Source: Prochlorococcus marinus XMU1408
GTDB taxonomy: Bacteria; Cyanobacteriota; Cyanobacteriia; PCC-6307; Cyanobiaceae
Assembly (NCBI RefSeq): GCF_003208055.1
Contig: NZ_QJUE01000002.1
Coordinates: forward strand, 124,001-188,000
Reading direction: 5' to 3'
DNA: 64,000 bases
A program made the position numbers and the translations under genes. Under the pieces are notes generated by a model. That model had not been told where the DNA came from, searched no databases, and worked only from the letters and a program-made list of their open reading frames with translations. Below are positions 30,662 to 31,888 of the stretch, one piece after another. How positions within the stretch are numbered: position 1 is the stretch's first letter; each line of letters starts with the position of its first letter.

Positions 30662-31672
30662 TTAGAAGCTGAATGCTGTTTCAACAACAACACCAGTGTC
30701 GTCATCACCAGTACTTGTATCTTCAACAGTGAAGAATCCAGGAGTGATTGAAACATTATCATTCACTGAATATGTGTAAGAAACTTCAAATCCGGTTGAA
30801 TCTAAAGAATCACTTCCATCAACATCAGTTGAATTGTAAGCAGCACTCAATGTTCCTGGGCCAACTTCGTAGTCAACACCAACGAACAAATCAGTTGCAT
30901 CAGCACCAGTTTCTGGATCAGTTGTGTCATAAGCAACACTGAATGTTGCGTCAATTGACTCAGGGCTGTAGTAGATACCGCCACCGAATGTGTCATATCC
31001 AGCTGTACCAGCTTCACCATCATTGGAAGCGATTACAAGACCACCGCCAAATCCGTCGCCGTTATAGCCAAGAGTGAAAGTTGAAACATCATCACCATCA
31101 TCTGCGCCAATTCCTACTGTTGAATCAGATCCACCAACAGAAACGAAGCTAACAGAAGCAACTACACCGTTGTCGTTAGAGTATGCAACAGCAACACCAG
31201 GACCAGTTTCATTACCAGCCAAAGAGTAAGGCATGCTGCCTAGTCTGAAAGCATCTGAGTAAGCAGAAGTTGTTGCTGCAACAACATCGTCCTGATCAAC
31301 CAAAGGTCCAACAGTTACTTCTAAATCGCCAACAGGGAATGCATAGAAAAGAGATGTAACGTTTAAGCCGTCACCAACTTCAACTGCACTATCCATGCTT
31401 GCAAGTGGGCCACTAGCATTACCTGCTTCGATACCTGCGTAGAAAAGGTCTTCACCTGTGAAGCTAGAAGTTACATCAAGGCCATATGCATATTGCATAT
31501 AAAGCTCTTCCTGTGTATCTGTTGTTCCGCCGTCAGCGACAGATCCAACAGTGAAAAAAGCACCACCAGAAAGAGATGTAGTTGATGAAAATGCAGTATC
31601 TGCATTAGCTGCAACTGGAGCCATTAGGCCCAATGCAGCAGGAGCTACCAGCAAACGCTGAAAAAGCTTCAT
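30662..31672 (-). CDS. Outer-membrane porin-like protein
   Basis: A 336-residue exported protein, starting MKLFQRLLVAPAALGLMAPV with a signal peptide cleaved after ANA. The mature chain is rich in Gly, Ser, Asp and Thr with alternating beta-strand pattern (for example GNETGPGVAVAYSNDNGVVA) and ends in Phe (ETAFSF), the usual C-terminal signal for outer-membrane insertion. It lacks an SLH domain, unlike long Som porins. An upstream frame extends to 31780 but is not part of the protein. Strongly expressed porins of this type are known in Prochlorococcus. Confidence 0.87.
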   Translation of the reverse strand: MKLFQRLLVAPAALGLMAPVAANADTAFSSTTSLSGGAFFTVGSVADGGTTDTQEELYMQYAYGLDVTSSFTGEDLFYAGIEAGNASGPLASMDSAVEVGDGLNVTSLFYAFPVGDLEVTVGPLVDQDDVVAATTSAYSDAFRLGSMPYSLAGNETGPGVAVAYSNDNGVVASVSFVSVGGSDSTVGIGADDGDDVSTFTLGYNGDGFGGGLVIASNDGEAGTAGYDTFGGGIYYSPESIDATFSVAYDTTDPETGADATDLFVGVDYEVGPGTLSAAYNSTDVDGSDSLDSTGFEVSYTYSVNDNVSITPGFFTVEDTSTGDDDTGVVVETAFSF

Positions 31673-31686
31673 TGTGTCCTCACACA
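31673..31686 (-). promoter_or_regulatory. Yfr1 sRNA target site over the porin ribosome site
   Basis: The minus-strand mRNA reads GUGUGAGGA just before the AUG (core complement at 31677-31685). This is a perfect 9-base match to the conserved unpaired UCCUCACAC stretch of the cyanobacterial sRNA Yfr1, and it includes the GAGG ribosome site. Yfr1 is known to repress outer-membrane porin mRNAs in Prochlorococcus MED4 in this way. The match is seen directly; regulation in this strain is inferred. Confidence 0.75.
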
Positions 31687-31888
31687 AAAAGTTTATGTAA
31701 CAAATATTACATTGCCACAAAAAGGCGTGTAAGTATCTCTTGTTACACCTTTCAGGCTGTCCTCTTAAAACGACAATCATTTCCGTTTTGATATTTATCT
31801 ATTTTTGCTGCTACTGCATTTATATAACCATAGATTAAAATCCTGATGCGAGCGGTTTTTATCTTTAATTATTTGGCCATGTCTTGCT

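Follow-up and report, generated by a model that had tools for sequence, protein, structure and literature searches.

The nine bases GTGTGAGGA that precede the porin gene in the 64,000-nucleotide stretch of Prochlorococcus DNA considered here (the window) are in all likelihood a genuine target of the small RNAs (sRNAs) of this cell that carry the Yfr1 undecamer, with Yfr1 in the first place and Yfr10 probably too. Such an sRNA would block the ribosome and lower the translation of the porin, the porins of the genome, four in number, would be tuned together, and Yfr2 would relieve the repression. The site, the sRNA genes, the complementarity between them and its conservation all emerge from the present analysis of the window, of its genome and of related genomes. 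The lineage of the window is, we assume, probably the low-light I clade.

The site is found on the minus strand at 31677-31685, 4 bases upstream of the porin start codon (ATG, 31670-31672, minus strand), and can be read directly in the context ...AAACTTTTT-GTGTGAGGA-CACA-ATG-AAGCTTTTTCAG. All 9 of its 9 bases are complementary to UCCUCACAC, over the ribosome-binding region, confirming the perfect Yfr1 complement that a sequence-only reading of the window had placed just before the porin AUG; as RNA, the Yfr1/Yfr10 target is GUGUGAGGA. It includes a Shine-Dalgarno-like core, GAGG, at 31678-31681 (minus strand), recognized from the sequence and from a control on GAGG-led candidate starts described below.

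The porin (336 aa, 30662-31672, minus strand) was recognized through the NCBIfam por_somb and Pfam Porin_4 profiles, with scores that are both below the cut-offs (51.6 bits against 100, and 24.2 against 27, respectively). Its MKLFQ..LVAPAALGL start is common to porins of other genera, its named relatives are all Prochlorococcus records, and no chain was matched among the PDB sequences. The gene is flanked by that of a TrmH-type methyltransferase and, divergently, by that of RsmB. An ATG further upstream, at 31780, belongs to the same open reading frame; position 31672 was taken as the real start because the signal peptide MKLFQRLLVAPAALGL, conserved in paralogs and relatives, starts there and because the upstream bases are not conserved beyond the target site. 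A candidate −10 box, TAATAT (31704-31709, minus strand), picked by eye and accompanied by similar leaders, would give a porin leader of approximately 25 nt, judging from the sequence. Overlapping this box upstream of the porin is a GTA-N8-TAC dyad (31697-31710, minus strand), which we take to be of the form of an NtcA site. It is present in 6 of 80 leaders of the genus, all with similar surroundings (0.93 expected from mononucleotide shuffling). Its position would be unsuited to activation, and the dyad could also simply reflect the −10 box.

Yfr1 is known as an abundant transcript of about 54-69 nt. The sequence-only reading had made its proposal depend on the presence of yfr1 elsewhere in the genome, and the gene is indeed there: a match to RF01116 of 64.5 bits (gathering cut-off, 38), covering positions 1-59 of 59, was obtained at 1481-1539 of L003, in the spacer between the genes of IMP dehydrogenase (guaB, 270-1433) and thioredoxin (trxA, 1650-1973). 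The same spacer is described as the Yfr1 position in Synechococcus elongatus PCC 6301 in the available part of PMC6202907. In the model alignment, the undecamer ACUCCUCACAC is unpaired between two stem-loops, the second of which is terminator-like. Thus, of the earlier description of the motif as a conserved loop, the conservation holds and the loop does not, the motif being an unpaired linker between two stems (model alignment and the accessible text of PMC2190773). When a longer stretch around Yfr1 is folded freely, both stems are kept and the undecamer is partly paired with the sequence that precedes the RNA.

The genome contains three copies of the undecamer ACTCCTCACAC, one in Yfr1 and one in each of two further RNAs (L001 and L002), in which it lies inside a predicted hairpin loop. 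Matching the Yfr10 model (RF02362) with 34.1 and 32.5 bits, the latter two are called only Yfr10-like because these scores fall below the cut-off of 43; the undecamer is common to the Yfr10 family and to Yfr1, but in Yfr10 the motif is in a hairpin loop. Three Yfr2/Cyano-1 RNAs (RF01701) were also found. Close to their 5' ends they carry GTGAGGAGTT, a complement of the kind seen in the porin site, and the start of one of them lies 129 nt past that of a Yfr10-like core. Yfr2/Cyano-1 is itself a small RNA rather than an mRNA leader, and it counteracts Yfr1 in reporter assays in MED4, according to the accessible portion of PMC6778093. All three classes of sRNA that were studied in MED4 have counterparts in the genome of the window. 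An Rfam scan confined to the window gave no family at the gathering score, and no known sRNA family was found there.

The occurrence of GTGTGAGGA alone proves nothing, and it is its position and its conservation that carry the case. The exact 9-mer is unique in the window, for a chance expectation of 0.29 per 64 kb, and at least one exact copy was obtained in 25 of 100 shuffles of the window. In the whole genome (1.795 Mb) there are 8 copies, the count for a reversed control pattern being 3. Three of the 8 are the antisense strand of the undecamer cores of Yfr1 and of the two Yfr10-like RNAs, and four sit 4 nt before porin ATGs. The remaining copy is at 1501-1509 of L011 (minus strand), within an alanine racemase coding region and not in a leader, which differs from Nostoc PCC 7120, where pairing is predicted just upstream of the start codon for most targets (PMC6974561, in the part available); an alanine racemase mRNA, alr2458, is listed there as a Yfr1 target. 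An interaction prediction, as had been proposed, set the unpaired segment of Yfr1 from this genome against 24-nt windows moved in 4-nt steps over both strands, and no other place in the 64 kb reached a duplex energy as low as that of the porin site (−17.4 kcal/mol, against −16.2 kcal/mol for the next), these energies leaving accessibility out of account. With assumed leader lengths, making the site accessible in the four porin leaders of this genome is predicted to cost 5.9 to 7.7 kcal/mol, with net values of −9.6 to −11.3 kcal/mol.

Conservation was assessed on porin starts that were found by their coding sequence only, the leaders being read afterwards, so that the site played no part in the search. 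Within the genus, a porin-start match was obtained in 40 of 41 genomes, G342 giving none with the start pattern. Loss of the match in the leaders of related porins had been named as an observation that would speak against the proposal; the match is kept, as the exact 9-mer is present in 81/81 distinct leaders of the genus. The invariant block extends from −13 to −2 (GTGTGAGGACAC), while each position from −45 to −14 varies, and so do the third positions of codons 2-16 (15 out of 15). Among the leaders of other picocyanobacterial genera, taken from hand-picked rather than random genomes of the family, the exact 9-mer is found in 28/38 and GTGTGAGG in 31/38. The counts of 81 and 38 do not include 40 named loci (L081-L120), whose distinct leaders, as printed, all have the site, nor the fourth porin of the genome itself (L010), which also has it, nor three chance non-porin matches (L032, L070 and L079). 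Over the whole leader set the distance between the site and the ATG goes from 3 to 7 nt, so that the block moves as a unit. With the start pattern no porin was retrieved from G008, G013, G025 and G033 in the first hand-picked set, or from G067, G026, G023 and G034 in the second.

The exact 9-mer is absent from 10 of the 38 leaders outside the genus, including leaders of g18 porins. In three leaders of this group (L063, L064 and L173) interrupted Yfr1 complements, GTGTTGAGG and GTGTTTGAGG, take the place of the uninterrupted 9-mer found here. We take g18 to be the high-light clade of MED4, the clade in which repression by Yfr1 was demonstrated. As to viruses, a pattern check revealed no porin start in any of the 115 stretches of viral contigs in which GTGTGAGGA is followed by four bases and ATGAA, and among the at least 120 viral stretches with CACACTCCTCACAC, the best 6 by a crude stem score did not resemble a Yfr1 gene with its terminator.

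The site is present in 4/4 porins found in the genome. An identity of this kind could also stem from recent duplication or gene conversion rather than from selection on the site, and the three own porins that are 85-89% identical to each other, together with the similar signal-peptide codons of the genus, would fit such an origin. However, the fourth porin (415 aa, L010), which is only approximately 30% identical to the other three, has the same site, the block is constant where leader flanks and third codon positions vary, and it recurs in other genera, making this explanation exceedingly improbable.

A different objection is that the block is merely the strong Shine-Dalgarno region of highly expressed porins, the match with Yfr1 being incidental. 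GAGG does lie inside the block, at the right distance from the ATG, and sites persist in assemblies without detected Yfr1. By the known anti-Shine-Dalgarno sequence, pairing with the ribosome falls to GAGG. The need for a Shine-Dalgarno sequence explains GAGG but not GTGT, which is just as invariant (81/81), nor the retention of GTGTGAGG in 31/38 leaders of other genera in spite of their changed spacing. Moreover, among the 9 candidate starts of the window with GAGG at Shine-Dalgarno distance, GTGT precedes that of the porin alone, although this control is small (candidates taken from open reading frames of at least 100 aa rather than from annotated genes, with internal in-frame starts included). 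We therefore regard a ribosome-binding role on its own as a very unlikely account of the block.

In the genus, the 12-mer GTGT-GAGG-ACAC (31674-31685, minus strand, in the window) is self-complementary, and forms the invariant inner part of a predicted small hairpin, UUGUGU-GAGG-ACACAA (31672-31687, minus strand), which is a structure prediction that covariation does not support. A hairpin with GAGG in the loop is predicted in 78/81 leaders of the genus when a 22-nt leader is assumed. In these leaders GAGG can be opened at a median cost of 0.01 kcal/mol, versus 1.74 kcal/mol in other genera, while for the complete 9-mer the median opening cost is 6.3 versus 5.1 kcal/mol. The columns of the GTGT/ACAC hairpin are constant within the genus and so offer no covariation, and no support came from the next pair outward (−14/−1), which is T-A in 74 leaders, compensatory in 1, wobble in 1 and broken in 5.

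The hairpin raises the question of whether the element conserved in the genus is this 12-nt stem-loop, acting in translation or mRNA stability, with the pairing to Yfr1 as a by-product. Pairing with Yfr1 can extend no further into the ACAC arm than its first A, yet this arm is constant throughout the 81/81 leaders, like the remainder of the block; this, along with the prediction of the hairpin in nearly all of them, speaks for such a role. The state of the −14/−1 pair goes against it, as does the distribution outside the genus, where the full 12-mer GTGTGAGGACAC is found in 2/38 leaders and the Yfr1-complementary 9-mer in 28/38. A stem-loop conserved for its own sake thus seems highly doubtful. 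A combination of pairing and structure may be put forward as a tentative and rather unlikely proposal, on the basis of the predicted folds. The porin leaders of the genus may have given structure to what was a plain Yfr1 site, in the form GUGU-GAGG-ACAC, with the GAGG loop displayed directly next to the AUG. Ribosomes would use this loop as long as it is free; Yfr1 or Yfr10 would first bind to the loop and from there open the stem, and the porin family would be switched together through one structure-gated site. A search of the published literature, made mostly of papers available without subscription, gave no report either of the hairpin or of this porin site in strains of the low-light I clade.

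Yfr1 was detected in 336/400 genomes of the family (234/251 of the good ones) and in 29/41 of the genus, including all seven that are at least 99% complete. The 12 genomes of the genus without it are drafts, 51-95% complete; incompleteness predicts 7.7 absences (P(≥12) = 0.05), and a few real losses of Yfr1 in the genus are possible. For 20 genomes listed among the 64 without a match, a repeat search with looser filters gave nothing above the cut-off, its five matches, one of which within the genus, scoring 15.9-17.9 bits (E, 0.37-0.84). A porin-start match was nevertheless obtained in 16 of these 20, and in 15 of the 16 the exact site is found in all porin leaders (in G369 one chance non-porin match was dropped). 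Therefore, the site does not strictly go along with the presence of Yfr1.

The undecamer is present in 19 of the same 20 genomes, in many cases, but not all, within a predicted hairpin loop, as checked on 30 fetched loci of the 46 undecamer matches. In a few of them it is read on the strand opposite to a Yfr2-like sequence. The same was judged by eye for L193, L198 and L199, in some genomes of the genus, and these Yfr2-like copies would, from their sequence, carry a perfect 11-nt Yfr1 complement. The exception to the exact site is G010, a complete genome of 1,751,080 bases without Yfr1, in which a Yfr10-like loop coexists with a porin site that matches at 8/9 positions. This agrees with the published picture of strain SS120, which is without Yfr1 (PMC2190773) and is thought to depend on Yfr10 (PMC6778093), as stated in the accessible parts of the two papers.

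Such genomes lend some weight to the view that the site serves mainly RNAs of the Yfr10 class, which present the motif in a hairpin loop, and that Yfr1 is secondary or redundant, as do the two Yfr10-like RNAs of the window's own genome. Against this view, the available parts of the published studies state the action on porin mRNAs for Yfr1 only, and the complementarity of Yfr1 and Yfr10 to the site is identical, so that the sequence is not decisive. A leading role of Yfr10 is thus possible, although on balance unlikely. The proposal of Yfr1 as the regulator is supported, with the refinement that Yfr10-like RNAs with the same undecamer could use the site equally; thus, Yfr1 need not be the sole regulator, as Yfr10 has the same motif.

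With Yfr1 in the first place, the system closely resembles that of MED4, in which, as reportedly found by Richter et al. in 2010, Yfr1 represses the som porin mRNAs PMM1119 and PMM1121 through a site on the ribosome-binding region. The sRNA family and the undecamer are the same as here, and the present porin is probably also of the som type. A difference from the MED4 som porins is that in the present genome four paralogs share one 12-mer able to form a hairpin. Nostoc PCC 7120 is a distant cyanobacterium with a broader set of Yfr1 targets, including outer-membrane and cell-wall mRNAs, and there Yfr1 represses alr0834, a homologue of the MED4 som porins, in reporter experiments (PMC6974561, available text).

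Repression of the porin, its mechanism and the titration by Yfr2 are inferred by analogy with the MED4 and Nostoc work. Pairing of the sRNA UCCUCACAC with GUGUGAGGA would mask GAGG, the Shine-Dalgarno core located shortly before the AUG, and by excluding the ribosome it would lower porin translation. One sRNA may tune the porin set jointly, since the four porins found share the same site. The Yfr2/Cyano-1 RNAs, with the closely similar GUGAGGAGU, would soak up Yfr1 and Yfr10, so relieving the repression. In MED4, the accessible text of Lambrecht et al. (2019, PMC6778093) reports that a reporter with the PMM1121 5'UTR is repressed approximately 4.7-fold by Yfr1 and relieved by Yfr2, and Yfr1 is described as constitutive, yet increased at least 2.6-fold in long nitrogen starvation. 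The som mRNA of MED4 is among the longest-lived (PMC2897979, available part). Because of this long life and of the constitutive character ascribed to Yfr1, graded tuning of the porin appears likelier than its shut-off, and full silencing is unlikely.

By analogy with MED4 and Nostoc, the porin-damping circuit described there very probably operates in this lineage too, and the expectation that it would be conserved is supported by the presence of yfr1 and by the retention of the match in the porin leaders. The Yfr1-porin circuit would thus be extended from MED4 and Nostoc to another Prochlorococcus lineage, and with a better-matched site. In the sampled leaders, upstream bases and the third positions of the nearby codons are less strictly conserved than this site. 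The perfect conservation of the Yfr1 undecamer was raised as a question in 2007 (PMC2190773, in the part available), and the strictness with which its target is kept makes the control of porins a candidate answer.
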